From Acidobacteriota bacterium (lineage in GTDB: Bacteria > Acidobacteriota > Vicinamibacteria > Vicinamibacterales > UBA8438), in contig DQNS01000034.1 in assembly GCA_015659035.1 (NCBI GenBank), forward strand, positions 1 to 64,000: 64,000 nt of DNA, read 5' to 3'. Positions 4,187-53,970 of this stretch are shown piece by piece. Made by a program: the position numbers and the translations under genes. Under the pieces are notes generated by a model, which was given only the letters and a program-made list of their open reading frames with translations, ran no database searches and was not told the DNA's origin. The stretch's first letter is position 1. Every line of letters starts with the position of its first letter.

Positions 4187-5632
<1,446 letters not shown>

Positions 5633-23861: not shown

Positions 23862-24066
23862 GTGGCCCCGTCCGCAACTACACTGGCATTCGGCCGGCGA
23901 TGCATCCCGCCTGGCGGCGTTGCGCGTTCCGCAAATATTGCCCGATGTTCTCGGTCGTCGCGCCTTGCCACCCGAGCGCATGACCGCCCTCGTCCCTCGA
24001 CAGGCTCGGGACGCCTCGAGCGTGTCGAGAGGCGGTGCTTCAGCGTAGCTGCGGACGGGACCACTC
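23862..24066 (+). repeat. MITE-like core repeat with nested palindrome (C-like)
   Basis: The core (cgatgcatcccgcctggcgg, then a diverged gttccgcaaatattgccc) is followed by the same 46-bp palindromic insert as in the copy at 836-1042 (cgacaggctcgggacgcctc). It occupies the presumed promoter region of rimP. Confidence 0.7.
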
Positions 24067-24109: not shown

Positions 24110-24223
24110 ATTGGTTTATCACCGCAAAGCTAACTGTACAACTATAGCACGACAGTCTCGTCGCCCGATACGGGCTGCTAGCGAAGCTGTGCCTCAAACC
24201 GACAAGTGAAAGCGGTGCGCTGC

Positions 24224-24335
24224 CTCGCTAGCAGAAGCTTTTCTCAGAGCCCCGCTACGCGGGGGCCTAGACATCTCCGCGCGACATGAAAACTTGCTTC
24301 AAACGTCACGATGTTACCCATAGGAGATGTCTAGG
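24224..24335 (+). repeat. Family-E hairpin repeat, complete copy
   Basis: Begins ctcgctagcagaagctttt, has a gccccgc..gcgggggc hairpin, and ends in a perfect 13-bp inverted repeat (24266-24278 with 24323-24335) around a 44-bp spacer. A second copy is at 49948-50061 and a fragment at 1062-1099. No coding frame of note. It lies between asnS and the terminator; the rest of 24110-24223 shows no gene. Confidence 0.8.
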
Positions 24336-31479: not shown

Positions 31480-32709
31480 TTACCGCAACGTCCGGATCTC
31501 CGTCTGCAGCGGGCCGGTGACGGTTGCCGACCGGTGCCCGACGTGCAGGTTGATCTCGGTCCGGAGACCGAAGTCCTCGAAATATATACCGGGCTCGATG
31601 GTCATACCGGTGCCCGGGAGAAGACGGCGCTCGTCGTGTGTCTCGAAATCGTCGAGATGCACGCCGTTGCCATGGACCTCCTCCCCCAGACTGTGTCCGG
31701 TCCGGTGGACGAACCGGTCGCCGAACCCGGCCGCGGCGATCAGACCGCGCGCCGCGCGGTCGACCTCCCAGCCGCGTAACTCGCCGCCCGCGCGTGTCGC
31801 CCGCTGCACCAGCGCGACCGCCGCGTCACGCCCCTCGCAGATCACCGTGAACGCATCAGCATACCGTGCCGGCACGGTGGTTCCGGTGTAGCCCACCCAG
31901 GTGATGTCGGCGTAGACCGCCCTCGGTGTCGGCAGTTTGCCCCACAGGTCGAGCAACAACACCTCGTCCGACCCGATGACCCGGTGCCGATCGCGTGTCG
32001 GTAGGTAATGCGGGTCGCCCGCGTTCTCCTGTGCCGCCACCACCGGGCGAGAGTCGCTGACGAGCCCCGCGTCCTCGAACCAGCCGGCCATCGCGTCCTG
32101 GACCTCGAACTCGGTGACCGGGTCGCCGCTGCGCATCCGCTGCGTCACCAGGTCGAACGCCTGGTCCTTGATGGCGTAGAGGGCGCTGGAGGCTGCCTCA
32201 TGGGACCCGAGGGCGTCCGCGTCCCAGACCGCCTCGAACCGCTGGACCAGGTCTCCGGACGAGCGCACCTCGACCCCGTGGGCGCGGACCGCGTCGACGG
32301 TGCCGGCGTCGACCCGCGAGACGTAGGGGATGGCGCACCCGGGCGAGAACTCCATGGCCACCGTCCGACAGCCCCTCAGCAGCGCCCGTAGCCCGGCGTC
32401 GAGCTCGCCGTGCCGCGCGTAGCGCGTCTTGTTGCCGGGGAGATGGTCGAGACGGTCGCGCTCGATCGCGTGCACGAGCGCGCGCGGCGGACCGTCCACC
32501 GGGATCAGGTAGTACCAGCGCCGTGTCGTCAGCTTGGCCGCATCGTTTAGCCCGGTCACCCGCCGGGCAATCGGGTTGGAGCCGTGAAAGTCGTACAGCA
32601 GCCACCCGTCGAGGCCGTCATCACGCAAGGCGCGCTGGACGGCAGCGATGTCTAGCAGTCCGTGCTGAAGGTCGCCGCTGCATTCGACCGATGCTGCATC
32701 CTGCCTCAC
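31480..32709 (-). CDS. M24-family metallopeptidase (Xaa-Pro aminopeptidase-like), N-terminus altered by repeat
   Basis: Pita-bread peptidase fold at about 170-400. Metal ligands are visible as LLDLWGKL (Asp), DITWVGY (Asp), HRTGHSLGEEVHG (His), IEPGIYFED (Glu) and LRTEINLHV (Glu). An N-terminal creatinase-like domain (GLDGWLLYDFHGSNPIARRV) precedes it. The conserved sequence begins at about residue 19, exactly where the A-type repeat 32652-32829 ends. No usual start codon follows the junction until a TTG at codon 29. Translation therefore probably starts in the repeat (ATG at 32709) or at that late TTG. Confidence 0.85.
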   Translation of the reverse strand: MRQDAASVECSGDLQHGLLDIAAVQRALRDDGLDGWLLYDFHGSNPIARRVTGLNDAAKLTTRRWYYLIPVDGPPRALVHAIERDRLDHLPGNKTRYARHGELDAGLRALLRGCRTVAMEFSPGCAIPYVSRVDAGTVDAVRAHGVEVRSSGDLVQRFEAVWDADALGSHEAASSALYAIKDQAFDLVTQRMRSGDPVTEFEVQDAMAGWFEDAGLVSDSRPVVAAQENAGDPHYLPTRDRHRVIGSDEVLLLDLWGKLPTPRAVYADITWVGYTGTTVPARYADAFTVICEGRDAAVALVQRATRAGGELRGWEVDRAARGLIAAAGFGDRFVHRTGHSLGEEVHGNGVHLDDFETHDERRLLPGTGMTIEPGIYFEDFGLRTEINLHVGHRSATVTGPLQTEIRTLR

Positions 32710-32829
32710 TGCGTTGTTCCTCCGTCAAACACTGCCGGTATTCTCACGGTCACGCCTTGTAACAGCCTGGCGCGGCATTGCTGACGACGGGTCTCGGTGC
32801 GACGCGGGACCTTCAGCACGGACTGCTAG
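32652..32829. repeat. MITE-like core repeat with perfect 22-bp A-type inverted arms
   Basis: The clearest copy: the first and last 22 bp (32652-32673 and 32808-32829) are exact reverse complements, beginning CTAGCAGTCCGTGCTGAAGG. The core gtcaaacactgccggtattc lies between. There is no open frame that could be a transposase, so it must be mobilised in trans if mobile. It lies between the M24 peptidase and the archease gene. Confidence 0.92.
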
Positions 32830-32929
32830 GCTCATGAGGTGGAGTATAGCAGCGGCCGCGCCGTCAGCCGGTGACACTTGCGTCGTCATCTACTGGTTTG
32901 GACGCCGGACTTTATGTGAAGGTTGGGAC

Positions 32930-33352
32930 GTGCCGTTCCGCTTTTTCGACCACACCGCCGACGTCGGTCTCGAGCTGAGCGCGCCTACCCTGCCGGCGCT
33001 CTTCGAGGAGGCGGCCCTGGCGCTGAGTGCGGTGCTCTCCCGGTCAGGGCGGGTCGAGCCGCGGCGCCACGTGTCTGTCTCGCTGACGGCGCCCTCTCTC
33101 GAGCAGCTGCTCGTCGACTGGCTCGCCGAGCTCCTCGGCCGGTTCGACGTCGAGCTGTGGGTGACCGGCGGGGTCGAGGTGACGGTTGACCGCGGTGACG
33201 GACGCTGCAGCTTGCAGGCGCTGGTCGCCGGCGAGCCGCTCGACCTCCGCCGCCACCCGGGCGCGCTACCGGTGAAGGGCATCACGTATCATCGGCTCAG
33301 CGTCCTGCAGACCGCTGACGGCTGGTGCGCCACCATCGTGCTCGATGTGTAG
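32930..33352 (+). CDS. Archease (RtcB activator)
   Basis: The 140-residue product from GTG 32930 (AAGG eight bases upstream) begins PFRFFDHTADVGLELSA, the archease hallmark. LLVDWLAELLGRFDVE and the C-terminal VKGITYHRLSVLQ are also typical. Archease converts RtcB from single-turnover to multiple-turnover by promoting its guanylylation, and alters its metal/cofactor range. The rtcB gene follows 169 bp later on the same strand. The frame is open upstream into the repeat, but that part is not conserved. Confidence 0.93.
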   Translation: MPFRFFDHTADVGLELSAPTLPALFEEAALALSAVLSRSGRVEPRRHVSVSLTAPSLEQLLVDWLAELLGRFDVELWVTGGVEVTVDRGDGRCSLQALVAGEPLDLRRHPGALPVKGITYHRLSVLQTADGWCATIVLDV

Positions 33353-33365
33353 GAGAGAGCTCTAC

Positions 33366-33494
33366 AGAAGTCAGGAGTCAGTCCTTCGACAACAACACCC
33401 CTGTGCTCTGCTCAGGATGAGCGGACGGAAGTCAGGAGAAGCCGGCCTGTCCGCCGTCGCCTTGGCGAAGGCGGGAGGGCTTTGCCGCGTTGCT
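33366..33494 (+). repeat. Family-D intergenic repeat (copy 1)
   Basis: Contains agaagtcaggagtcag, then a block of about 45 bp beginning ccttcgacaacaacacccct and ending aggatgagcgga, then a cctgtccgcc..ggcgaaggcgg palindrome. The block is identical in copies at 41846-41970 and 53834-53970. It separates archease from rtcB. Confidence 0.85.
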
Positions 33495-33521
33495 TGAGAC
33501 ACTCACTGGAAAGGCCGGACC

Positions 33522-34973
33522 ATGCCGACACGAGGCGTGCACCTAGAACAGATCGATCCGTATCGCTGGCGGGTGCCGAGACAGGGCGGGATGCTGGTGG
33601 ACGGTATCGTCTACGCTGACGCCGCGGTGGCCGGTGATCTGCGTCACGACCCGAGCCTCGAACAGGTCTGCAACGTCGCGCATCTGCCTGGTATCGTCGG
33701 TGCATCGCTCGCGATGCCGGACGTGCACTGGGGCTACGGGTTTCCGATCGGCGGGGTGGCGGCCACCAGCCTCGACGGCGGGGTCATCTCGCCGGGCGGG
33801 GTCGGCTACGACATCAATTGAGGCGTCCGTCTGCTGCGCTCAGGTCTGAGCCGCACCGACGTCGCCGACCATCTACCCCGGATTGCCGATCGGATGTATC
33901 ACAACGTCCCCACAGGAGTGGGGGCGCGCCGGCGGGATCTGCAGCTCTCGTCCCGCGATCTGCGGGCCGTGCTCGAGCGCGGGGCCGCGTGGGCGGTGGC
34001 GCGTGGATACGGTACCGAGGCGGATCTCGAGCGGGTGGAGGAGCGCGGCTGTCTCCCAGGTGCCGACCCCGACCTGCTGTCCGCACGGGCACTCGAGCGG
34101 GGGCGGCCGCAACTCGGGACGCTCGGGTCTGGGAACCACTTCGCCGAGCTGCAGTATGTCTCCGAAATCTACGACGCGCCGGTGGCGGCCGCGTTCGGGC
34201 TCCGATTGGATCAGGTCACAATCATGCTCCACAGCGGGTCCCGCGGGCTGGGACACCAGGTCTGCCAGGACCACCTCCGGGTCATGGTCGACGCCAGTCG
34301 CCGCTACGGAATCGCGCTACCGGACCGCCAGCTGTGCTGCGCGCCGCTCGAGTCCCCGGAGGGTCGCCGGTATCTGGCCGCGATGTCGGCTGCGGCCAAC
34401 TTTGCGTTCGCCAACCGACAGGTGATGGCGCACTGGGTCCGCGAGAGCGTGGCGGAGGCGCTGGAGATCGCCCCCGAGGCCACGCAGCTGGACACCCTGT
34501 ATGACGTGTGCCACAACATCGCGAAGCTGGAGACGTTCCAGATCGATGGGCGGCCTCAACGACTCTGCGTCCATCGGAAGGGAGCAACCCGGGCCTATCC
34601 GCCCGGGCACCCGGACACCCCGGCGCCCTATCGCCATGTCGGTCAGCCGGTGCTCGTGCCGGGCGACATGGGTCGGTACTCGTATGTGTTGGTCGGCACC
34701 GTCCAGGCGATGCGAGAGACGTTCGGTTCCACCTGCCACGGGGCGGGACGGCGGATGAGCCGGAGACAGGCCACGCGCGTCGGCGACGCACGTGGCCTGC
34801 TCGACGAGCTCCGCGCTCGCGGTATCCATGTGCGGGCCGCTGGTCTGGCCACGGTGGCCGAAGAGCGACCGGAGGCCTACAAGGATGTCGCCGACATCGT
34901 GCGGATCGTCCACGCGGCGGGTGTGAGCACGCGGGTTGCACAACTGCGCCCGCTGGCGGTCATCAAAGGATGA
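33522..34973 (+). CDS. rtcB: RNA-splicing ligase RtcB, in-frame UGA read as candidate selenocysteine 100
   Basis: RtcB joins 2',3'-cyclic phosphate and 5'-OH RNA ends using GTP and Mn. The frame of 484 codons is continuous except for one TGA at 33819-33821 (codon 100). That codon lies in [16 protein letters not shown], where the family has DIN-Cys, the cysteine bridging both metals (Cys98 of the Pyrococcus enzyme). All other ligands remain: Asp97, His206 (GSGNH), His237 (LHSGSRG), His331 (CHNIAK) and the guanylylated His406 (TCHGAGR). With readthrough the protein is 483 residues, the normal length. Start ATG 33522 has AAAGG seven bases upstream. Archease is upstream. Cysteine lost to mutation or a base-call error is the alternative. 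Confidence 0.85.
33822..33866 (+). promoter_or_regulatory. Candidate bacterial SECIS hairpin in rtcB
   Basis: Directly after the TGA, the upper stem UGCG-CUCA pairs with UGAG-CGCA (33835-33842 with 33847-33855, one bulged C at 33851) around the tetraloop GGUC (33843-33846). The loop begins 22 nt from the last base of the TGA, leaving 21 nt between. A lower stem GGCG/CGCC (33822-33825 with 33863-33866) can close the structure. E. coli fdhF presents the same GGUC loop to SelB, and known bacterial elements have a G early in the apical loop at comparable spacing. The structure was folded by eye. Confidence 0.65.
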
Positions 34974-40897: not shown

Positions 40898-41088
40898 CTG
40901 GCAGCCCGTGGTGAGAGTCGCTGCTGCATTCGAGCGGCGCTGCATCCCGGGAAGGCCAGCGCTGGGTTTCTGACCCAGCGGGGTCACAGACTGCCGGTAT
41001 TCTCCCTCGTCACGCCTTGTACCGACCGAGCGCGGCATCGATCATGACAGCTCTCGATGCGACGCACGACTTTCGCCACGGGCTGCAG
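40898..41088. repeat. MITE-like core repeat with A-type arms
   Basis: Left arm ctggcagcccgtggtgagag, right arm tttcgccacgggctgcag, with the core cagactgccggtattctccc between. A local cagcgctgggtttctgac-type hairpin is inserted before the core, also visible in decayed form near 21570. It provides the upstream region of nadK and the last residues of tlyA. Confidence 0.85.
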
Positions 41089-41830: not shown

Positions 41831-41845
41831 GGGAGTGTCCTTACG

Positions 41846-41970
41846 GAATCAGCAATCAGTCCTTCGACAACAACACCCCTGTGCTCTGCTCAGGATGAGC
41901 GGACAGGAGATAACCGGCCTGTCCGCCGAAGCCTGGGCGAAAGCGGAAGGGCTTCGCCGGTTGCCGCTTG
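41846..41970 (+). repeat. Family-D intergenic repeat (copy 2)
   Basis: Same ccttcgacaacaacacccct block as at 33366-33494 and 53834-53970, followed by the cctgtccgccgaagcctggg palindrome part. It lies between the polyprenyl synthase gene and tlyA. Confidence 0.85.
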
Positions 41971-43241: not shown

Positions 43242-43410
43242 CTAGTGTCCTGCATAAGGTGAATCTGTACCGCTCGCCGGGCGGGGCATCCCGCCGGCTT
43301 TCGTTCGCCTCGGTCACATACTGCCGGTATTCTCCCTCGTCGCGCCTTGTCATGGCCGAGCGCCGCATCGATCACGACGGGTCTCGGTGCGATGCGGGAC
43401 GCTGCGCTAG
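43242..43410. repeat. MITE-like core repeat with A-type ends, between xseA and xseB
   Basis: The core tcacatactgccggtattct is followed by tcgatcacgacgggtctcgg; ends ctagtgtcc and gctgcgctag. The last CTAG contains the xseA stop codon (43407-43409) and the first CTAG lies 4 bp from the xseB ATG, so the element fills the intergenic space exactly. Confidence 0.85.
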
Positions 43411-44786
43411 TCCTTGCCGGTCACCGTGCACGTGAGCTGCCCCTGACGGAGGGTGATCGCGACATCGTCTCCCACCGATACCGCGGACGCGTCCCGAACG
43501 ATCGCGGTGCGGTTCGCGTTCCAGCAGACGGCGTAGCCGCGCGCGAGGACCCCCAGCGGGCTCAGCGCCTCGAGACGGCCGGTCAGGTCACCCAGACGGC
43601 CTTCCAGCCGTTGGCGCCGATGGACGATCGCGGCGCCCAGTCGTTCGCCGGCGACCACCAGACGGGTCCGGCTGGCCTCGAGTCTGCGCCCCGGCTCGTG
43701 GGCTTCCAGCTTGAGCTGCGCGCTGCGCAGGCGGCGCTCTCGCGTGACAAGCGTCGACCTGGTGGCCTGGGTCAAGGTGTGTGTCAACTCGGCGGCGTGC
43801 CGGCCGCGTATCGCGAGCCGGGCCGGCCAGCCGGCCACACCCGGGCGGCGATCGAGCTCGAGGACGCTGGTGAGGAGACGCCGGACCGTGTCCCGCAGGG
43901 TTGCGCGCAGCCGGTCACTGAGCTGGTCTACCCGGCCGAGAAGCTCGTCCCGGCCCGCGACCACGATCTCGGCCGCGGCCGAGGGGGTCGCGGCGCGGAT
44001 GTCGGCCACCAGGTCGCTGATCGTCACGTCGATCTCGTGACCAACCGCGGAGATCACCGGGACCGTGGCCGTCGCGATCGCCCGGGCGACCGGTTCCTCG
44101 TTGAAGGCCCACAGGTCCTCGAGTGACCCGCCGCCCCGCCCGACGATGATGACATCGACCCCTTCTTGTCGCGAGAGCTGGTCGATGCCGCGCGCGATCT
44201 GTCCGGCAGCGCCCTCTCCCTGCACGCGCACTGGACGGATGACGACGTGGGCTGTGGGATGCCGCCGGGCCAGCACCTTGAGAATGTCCTGTAGCGCTGC
44301 GCCGTGCAGCGAGGTGACAACCCCGATCTGGCGGGGGAGCAGCGGCAGTGGGCGTTTCCGGGTCGCTTCGAACAGGCCGTCGGCTTCGAGTGTGCGTTTC
44401 AGCTGGTCGAACGCTACCTGCAGCGCGCCCACCCCTTGTGGCTGCAGCTGCTCGCACACGATCTGATACTCGCCCTTCGGCTCGTAGACGGTCACACGGC
44501 CCCGGGCGATGACCCGTAGTCCGTCTTCCGGGGTGAACCGTAGATACCGGACCGCCGAGCGGAACATCACTGCCTTGAGCTGGGCGTGCTCGTCCCGCAG
44601 CGTGAAGTAGAGGTGCCCGGTCTTCCAGAGCCGGCTGTTCGCGATCTCGCCTTCGACCAAGACTTCCCCCTGGGTCGATTCCAGCACCCCGCGAATGCGG
44701 GTGGTTAGCTCGCTGACGGTCACGACCTCGCGGGTGGGTGCGTGGCCTGCGGGGGTGCCGAACGGCAAGGACGGAGGGCCGCTCAC
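43407..44786 (-). CDS. xseA: Exodeoxyribonuclease VII large subunit
   Basis: 459 residues with the N-terminal OB-fold (TVSELTTRIRGVLESTQGEV, ANSRLWKTGHLYFTLRD) and the catalytic core (IGVVTSLHGAALQDIL, VDVIIVGRGGGSLEDLWAFN, AVGHEIDVTISDLVAD). A coiled-coil stretch (about 300-390) ends near LSPLGVLARGYAV. GTG 44786 overlaps the ymdB stop by 4 bp (GTGA). Works with XseB in DNA repair. Confidence 0.95.
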   Translation of the reverse strand: MSGPPSLPFGTPAGHAPTREVVTVSELTTRIRGVLESTQGEVLVEGEIANSRLWKTGHLYFTLRDEHAQLKAVMFRSAVRYLRFTPEDGLRVIARGRVTVYEPKGEYQIVCEQLQPQGVGALQVAFDQLKRTLEADGLFEATRKRPLPLLPRQIGVVTSLHGAALQDILKVLARRHPTAHVVIRPVRVQGEGAAGQIARGIDQLSRQEGVDVIIVGRGGGSLEDLWAFNEEPVARAIATATVPVISAVGHEIDVTISDLVADIRAATPSAAAEIVVAGRDELLGRVDQLSDRLRATLRDTVRRLLTSVLELDRRPGVAGWPARLAIRGRHAAELTHTLTQATRSTLVTRERRLRSAQLKLEAHEPGRRLEASRTRLVVAGERLGAAIVHRRQRLEGRLGDLTGRLEALSPLGVLARGYAVCWNANRTAIVRDASAVSVGDDVAITLRQGQLTCTVTGKD

Positions 44787-49718: not shown

Positions 49719-50158
49719 CAGTGGATCGTCTGTGGGGCTTCGAGCCGAGCCAGGTGGCCGAGGCGGAGTACACCCTGGAGTATGCGGCACTGTGTCCGCA
49801 TTGCCGGGAGGAGATCGAGGTCGTGAACGTGGCGCGGCTGCCCCGCACCCGGGTCAACTTCACGTCGACCCTGCCGCGTCGAGGTCACGTGGTCGCGTGC
49901 CCGAAGTGCAACACAATCATTTCAGCCGACCTCGGGTGGGCCGCACCCTCGCTAGCAGAAGCTTTTCTTACAGCCCCGCTAGGCGGGGGCCAGACATCTC
50001 CGGTGAGCGACGAAAAACGTGCTTCAAACGTGACGATCTCGCCAAGAGGAGAGATGTCTAGTGCGCGCCGGGACCCTTGTAGTTCTTCTCGCCCGCCTCG
50101 ATGCGCACATCCAGGCGGTTGTCGGGCGGTGGCAGGGGACAGGTCGTGTGCGGGTTGA
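49715..50158 (+). CDS. Zinc-ribbon protein with repeat-derived C-terminus
   Basis: The frame from GTG 49715 has FEPSQVAEAEYTLEYAALCP, then CPHC (about 27-30) and CPKC (about 62-65), a two-knuckle zinc ribbon. After LGWA (about residue 76) the coding sequence enters the family-E repeat at 49948 and the rest of the 147 residues is low-quality, repeat-derived sequence. The original gene was probably about 75-90 codons and has lost or extended its end. Function unknown. Confidence 0.5.
   Translation: MTVDRLWGFEPSQVAEAEYTLEYAALCPHCREEIEVVNVARLPRTRVNFTSTLPRRGHVVACPKCNTIISADLGWAAPSLAEAFLTAPLGGGQTSPVSDEKRASNVTISPRGEMSSARRDPCSSSRPPRCAHPGGCRAVAGDRSCAG
49948..50061 (+). repeat. Family-E hairpin repeat, second copy
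   Basis: ctcgctagcagaagcttttc, gccccgctaggcgggggc hairpin, AGACATCTCC (49992-50001) pairing with GGAGAGATGTCT (50048-50059, two extra bases). Highly similar to 24224-24335. Its terminal tctag supplies the stop codon of the DUF1684 gene on the minus strand. Confidence 0.85.
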
Positions 50159-53833: not shown

Positions 53834-53970
53834 AAGAAGTCAGAAGTCAGAAGTCAGTCCTTCGACAACAACACCCCTGTGCTCTGCTCAGGATGAGCGG
53901 ACGGAAGTCAGGGGCAGCTGGCTTGCCCGGGGGAGCCTCGGCGAAGGCGGGAGGGCCTTGCCAGCTTTCC
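53834..53970 (+). repeat. Family-D intergenic repeat (copy 3)
   Basis: agtcagaagtcagaagtcag followed by the conserved ccttcgacaacaacacccct block and ggcgaaggcgggagggcc. It lies between nfo and acnA (divergent). The remaining 53971-54127 shows no clear promoter boxes; a related but diverged tract is at about 52785-52925. Confidence 0.85.

Follow-up and report, generated by a model that had tools for sequence, protein, structure and literature searches.

A MITE-like repeat that interrupts codon 3 in a gene for an M24 peptidase probably supplies its present translation start

The window analyzed here is the whole 64,000-nucleotide stretch G000:C72:1-64000 of an Acidobacteriota genome (3.18 Mb in 150 contigs, 89% complete). 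Its minus strand carries an M24 peptidase gene (Pfam PF00557, E = 4.2e-29), for which the best solved relative by sequence is 5xev, a Xaa-Pro dipeptidase (E = 3.4e-79, chain residues 4-394), and for which the best-matching named records are metagenome-assembled Acidobacteria/Vicinamibacteria, so that the genome probably belongs to the Vicinamibacterales. At the upstream end of this gene sits a short repeat that occurs at the identical place in a second genome, G002; these two genomes are the carriers. The features of the locus are the following.

31480..32652, minus strand: conserved body of the M24 peptidase, 390 codons and a stop, beginning at GAC 32652, with matches to Pfam, 5xev, and the orthologues
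32652..32829, minus strand: 178-bp interspersed repeat, MITE-like, of a family in this genome and also in G002
32652..32673, plus strand: terminal inverted repeat, gene-proximal arm, 22 bp, paired with the distal arm in the predicted fold
32808..32829, minus strand: terminal inverted repeat, distal arm, 22 bp, paired with the proximal arm in the predicted fold
32653..32709, minus strand: 19 repeat-encoded codons (GTG...CTA) in frame with the peptidase, open in both carriers
32707..32709, minus strand: GTG, proposed present start codon, the first in-frame start upstream of the body
32719..32723, minus strand: GGAGG, putative Shine-Dalgarno sequence, 9 nt before the GTG
32725..32727, minus strand: in-frame TGA that ends the upstream ORF opened by the old ATG
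32725..32835, minus strand: upstream ORF with the old ATG as its start, 36 codons long in G000 (17 codons in G002)
32833..32835, minus strand: ATG, displaced original start codon (ATG-AGC, 32835-32830); in most orthologues the start lies two codons before the D
32843..32848, minus strand: TATACT, retained -10-like element
Repeat-encoded N-terminal stretch under the predicted GTG start: MRQDAASVECSGDLQHGLLDIAAVQR

The conserved body opens exactly at the repeat terminus, and between this junction and the conserved body there is no in-frame ATG or GTG, both as the first-pass annotation of this DNA had described. The body begins with the GAC codon 32652-32650, and the gene-proximal junction reads CTA-GAC-ATC. 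That annotation had also placed a start at 32709; the position does hold the first in-frame start, and it does lie within the repeat, but the codon is GTG and not ATG. Absent from it were the perfect 22-bp inverted termini, the surviving ATG and TATACT, the TGA, and the GGAGG. Across the distal junction the order is TATACT, 7 bases, ATG-AGC, and then the CTAG of the repeat. Since the old signals lie beyond the repeat and the junctions read in this way, the repeat sits in codon 3, and the insertion adds a net 174 bp, in frame.

The repeat has several attributes of a MITE: it is short and without a transposase gene, it has terminal inverted repeats, and its copies are dispersed in related genomes. 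The inverted termini are perfect over 22 bp in the M24 copy and, by eye, imperfect in the other aligned copies. A search of its own genome at E ≤ 10 gives 55 matches, which comprise at least 40 copies, the M24 copy included (E ≤ 3.1e-16, with 40 of 140 first-look candidates scored), and 15 short matches to the inverted ends. With up to 3 mismatches, the terminus is found 115 times in this genome versus 0 times for the same pattern read backwards, and it has matches in 33 of 60 genomes, for which the backwards control yields one match apiece in 5 genomes. The aligned copies (n = 30) match over 126-179 nt, and a single RNA strand of the repeat folds better than its shuffles (z = -5.81). As a member of a family, the repeat is not a product of chance. 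Rfam reports nothing over the repeat at E ≤ 1.

The M24 insertion ends CTAG...CTAG at a CTNG site, which is compatible with a duplication of either TA or CTAG. A copy at 40898-41086 in G000, to which nothing corresponds at the equivalent site of G002 or G003, does not present a clean target-site duplication when compared with those two genomes, and a copy at about 43272-43416 is poorly comparable. The gene adjoining the copy at 40898-41086 is presumably NAD-kinase-like, by the look of its sequence. As for an autonomous partner, among the terminus places listed for this genome there is one facing pair at a distance of 0.8-3 kb (contig C41, 1.7 kb apart), and the ORFs enclosed by it are not transposase-like by eye.

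The window has other repeats as well. One family of 122 nt is present at 33365-33486, 41843-41964, and 53841-53962, the second being 63% and the third 90% identical to the first; at the first of these places there is also an overlapping RsmY-like Rfam match below threshold (23.4 bits, for a gathering threshold of 57). A 50-nt repeat holding a GC-rich palindrome occurs at 24218-24267 and 49942-49991 (90% identical), and a GGTGGC-type simple repeat at 4516-4650 has nine overlapping register copies.

How did this gene start before the insertion? We take as orthologues the best 30 matches (L031-L060), with 21 further matches above 300 bits outside this set. Two of the 30 loci, those of G000 and G002, carry the repeat, and 28 (L033-L060) are free of it; no string resembling the terminus occurs within 400 nt upstream of the body in any of these 28. 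An ATG or GTG lies at most 4 codons upstream of the conserved body in 27 of the repeat-free orthologues, and at 13 codons in the remaining one. In 17 of the 28, a TATA[AC]T box stands 6-9 nt before the in-frame start (versus 2 of 5600 shuffles), and these include the nine closest ones (L033-L041), while 11 do not have it. A Shine-Dalgarno-like string is found in just 1 of the 28. The signature of a leaderless gene, a -10 box before the start and no Shine-Dalgarno sequence, would thus be the ancestral state of this gene, with the box in 17 of the 28 orthologues; the repeat-free G003, of the same genus, reads TATACT-N7-ATG-AGG-CTG-GAT. In leaderless bacterial genes, a TANNNT box is described at about 12 bp upstream of the start, and Acidobacteria are among the phyla listed (PMC3160421). 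The M24 orthologues resemble them in their TATA[AC]T at 6-9 nt; unlike in leaderless genes, the box of the two carriers is now split from the proposed start by the repeat. The ancestral gene probably had a leaderless mRNA, with the -10 box 6-9 nt before its ATG.

The second carrier, G002, has the repeat in collinear DNA, and its M24 protein is 93% identical to that of G000. The copy at the M24 site is also the best match in G002 to the repeat of G000 (82%). The M24 protein of G003 is 85% identical and has no insertion, and in G001, the fourth genome of the genus, the match spans residues 157-390 only. Since G002 shares the insertion and G003 lacks it, the insertion most simply predates the split between G000 and G002 and postdates the split from G003, and we infer a single insertion in the common ancestor of the two species. 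Both carriers keep the TATACT and the ATG-AGC, both keep GGAGG-N9-GTG, and both keep the 19-codon frame open. The distance from the old ATG to the GTG is 126 nt in one and 128 nt in the other. The old ATG of G002 does not share the reading frame of the gene (185 nt) and opens 17 codons. With the old ATG out of frame there, and with the GTG region kept in both, the start region that the two carriers have in common is the repeat-borne one.

The two parts of the repeat have diverged to different extents. Between G000 and G002, the stretch that runs from the repeat's distal end up to the TGA has 27 differences in 102 aligned positions, with 2 gap columns. The TGA-GGAGG-GTG segment has 2 differences in 21 positions, and the 18 codons after the GTG have 4 in 54 without gaps, so that the distal and proximal parts stand at 27/102 versus 6/75 (Fisher p = 0.0017). 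Our control is a segment holding another copy, common to G000 and G002 and missing in G003 (window positions 23862-24066, borders set by hand), whose halves differ at 23/103 and 12/60 positions, with 42 gap columns in the second half. Relative to this control, the M24 copy is less diverged in its proximal part (p = 0.0098) and similar in its distal part (p = 0.37). Three of the 4 differences in the 18 repeat-encoded codons alter the residue, and for that reason selection on the repeat-encoded peptide itself is unsupported. In the predicted fold, 4 of the 5 GGAGG bases are paired in G000, and they are mostly free in G002.

We consider it likely that this is an old insertion that was rescued by a repeat-borne GTG start adding 19 residues to the protein, probably with a switch from leaderless to Shine-Dalgarno initiation. 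The sequence of events would be as follows. Before the insertion, the gene would have been read from a leaderless mRNA. A MITE-like repeat would then have entered codon 3 (ATG AGC | CTNG) in the common ancestor of the two species, displacing the start region. The old promoter and ATG would have persisted, with the ATG now opening only a short upstream ORF, and the GGAGG would lead the ribosome to initiate at the GTG, which lies in the part of the repeat next to the gene. The product would be the peptidase preceded by 19 repeat-encoded residues. That the GTG is actually used, and that the mode of initiation changed, we infer from comparing sequences in the two genomes that carry the insertion. 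The first-pass annotation had proposed a repeat-borne start with about 19 new residues among its options, and it is the option favored here, given that the ribosome-binding sequence, the GTG, and the open frame all persist in a second species, where the distal part of the repeat has drifted and the old ATG does not lead into the gene.

The same arrangement could be read as a coupled leader peptide, in which a ribosome starts leaderless at the old ATG, translates the 36-codon ORF to its TGA, and, 15 nt later, restarts at the GTG. The position of the GGAGG within those 15 nt in G000 suits such termination-reinitiation, and so does the retention of TATACT and ATG-AGC in both carriers. But the upstream ORF of G002, with its 17 codons, ends far upstream of the GTG, so the close spacing between stop and start is not common to the carriers, and we regard reinitiation as unlikely.

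The repeat could also be bypassed altogether, if translation started at a late TTG (codon 9 of the body), which the first-pass annotation had offered as an alternative, or at a CTG just before the junction; the N terminus would then be shortened in the first case or almost native in the second. Both codons are in frame in both carriers. Against them, no Shine-Dalgarno-like sequence is seen by eye ahead of either, within the repeat it is the part around the GTG that has been preserved better, and an in-frame ATG or GTG precedes the body in all 28 repeat-free orthologues, so that a late TTG is needed in none of them. The comparison with orthologue starts had been named beforehand as one that could overturn the repeat-borne start, and it gave the late TTG no support. 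A start at the TTG or the CTG is, in our judgment, quite improbable.

Does this genome have the means to initiate at the GTG that we favor? In 88 ORFs of the genome that have a first ATG, we count 26 Shine-Dalgarno-like pentamers at 9-17 nt before it versus a background of 8.2 expected from further upstream, with a peak at 10-12 nt, and this excess indicates that Shine-Dalgarno initiation is available here. The first base of the GGAGG lies 14 nt ahead of the GTG, slightly beyond that peak. A cruder count over 46 ORFs of the window gives no clear Shine-Dalgarno excess (9 versus 6.4 expected) and no TANNNT excess (5 versus 8.3). The 88 ORFs, too, have scarcely more TANNNT than expected (5 versus 3.7), and a genome-wide habit of leaderless initiation is seen neither in those 88 ORFs nor in the 46 of the window. 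Because of this, the case for leaderless ancestry stands on the conserved TATACT of the gene itself, judged by the criterion of PMC3160421.

There is also the possibility that the gene is silenced or decaying, with the open frame a leftover. Gene decay does occur in this region, as the neighboring archease and rtcB genes are fragmented in G002. Against decay of the M24 gene are its full-length frame in two genomes, the 93% identity of the two proteins, and the distribution of differences in the gene body between G000 and G002, with 20, 12, and 55 at codon positions 1, 2, and 3 of 390 codons. By this third-position bias, the gene body is under purifying selection and is maintained in both carriers. 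The earlier suggestion that the gene is poorly expressed is thereby made unlikely and finds no support here, and we hold silencing or decay to be highly improbable.

The neighboring genes deserve a description of their own. Archease and rtcB (window positions 32930-34973) are split into separate fragments in G002 (L213, G002:C245), where no rtcB match is found at E ≤ 1e-60, and they are on another contig (C42) in G003. In the window, rtcB (33522-34973, plus strand) has a single in-frame TGA at 33819-33821, where other RtcB proteins have a Cys (GVGYDIN*GVR), which we take to be the metal-binding Cys. The RtcB motif is found in 9 of 15 loci, 5 with TGA (G000, G001, G003, G029, G048) and 4 with TGC, and is not found in the other 6. 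A hairpin with the loop GGTCT follows the TGA in 5 out of 5 loci and is missing in 4 out of 4 TGC loci. A tRNA-Sec scores over the cut-off in each of the 3 genomes searched (G000, G002, G003), and also in 5 of 14 control genomes. For selB, 6 of 8 genomes score over the cut-off, including G000, G003, and G029, and the others, G001 and G048, are both 74% complete. This looks like a natural selenocysteine RtcB. In the small part of the literature matches on selenocysteine RtcB that was covered, the match to all terms concerns EF-Tu engineering.

Returning to the proposed GTG start, where do its elements come from? Taking the window and the best-match loci of G000-G003, there are 127 matches with 97 distinct copies, 79 of which cover the start column. 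GTG is present at that column in 11 of the 79, and GGAGG at its own column in 2, both of them the M24 insertion (G000 and G002). For the 52 copies with a recognized terminus, the length from the start column to the end is 57 nt in 36 and 58 nt in 12, and the frame is open through the terminus in 24. GTG together with an open 58-nt frame occurs in 8 of the 52: two are the M24 insertion, three are in G001, and three in G003. As other copies also have the GTG and the open frame, these two elements were probably already in the subfamily that inserted, and the GGAGG would have arisen locally.

Other copies could have provided starts in the same manner. Among 96 distinct copies, we observe 42 ORFs that extend at least 90 codons past the terminus and have their first start inside the copy, two of them being the M24 gene of the two carriers. 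The 42 may for the most part be spurious. Those recognizable by eye (such as L173 and L023) have a plausible start of their own just outside the repeat, and on these grounds we accept no second case. We can offer only tentatively, and with some doubt, the more general idea that the subfamily with the GTG and the open frame, 8 of the 52 copies, is a portable translation start, whose landing in codon 3 turned a leaderless gene into a Shine-Dalgarno-led one with a structured leader, after the change to GGAGG.

Insertions of comparable repeats in genes have been described. Rickettsia palindromic elements (RPEs) are palindromic repeats of about 150 bp found in frame within coding genes that are kept (PMC10969869), and the M24 repeat is like them in being a palindromic-type insertion within a coding gene, in frame, with the gene retained. 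On the other hand, an RPE fuses a conserved peptide into the product, whereas the M24 repeat would have taken over the start, lies mostly outside the gene frame, and has an in-frame stop (PMC10969869). Read-through from the host's own start, as in RPEs, is not what we find, with a TGA in frame in G000 and the old ATG out of frame in G002. Bacterial MITEs such as ERIC, QMITE1, and those of Anabaena are short and multicopy, and produce in-frame fusions upon insertion, and also inactivation (PMC10969869); the M24 repeat shares with them its size class, its multiple copies, and the in-frame fusion, and differs in the proposed takeover of the start. The terms "start codon" and "ribosom" do not occur in the main text of that MITE review (PMC10969869). 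In 5xev there is no counterpart of the 19 repeat-encoded residues, as the alignment starts from query residue 20 and chain residue 4. Our literature searches, judged by titles and the openings of abstracts, return no case of a repeat-borne gene start. The case would then be known in kind, as a fusion of a MITE with a gene, and new in that the repeat appears to supply the start of the gene.

The usual account of repeats is that they break genes or add a peptide to them. Here, two species have retained an insertion that would be expected to destroy the start region, and the repeat-free relatives, the carriers, and the related copies can all be compared. Automatic start calling can mis-set the starts of such genes. 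The locus offers a concrete case for how a leaderless gene may become a Shine-Dalgarno-led one. And if the repeat subfamily is indeed a portable translation start, the locus would represent a change of initiation mode that was caused by a mobile repeat and maintained in nature, with the states before and after both at hand.
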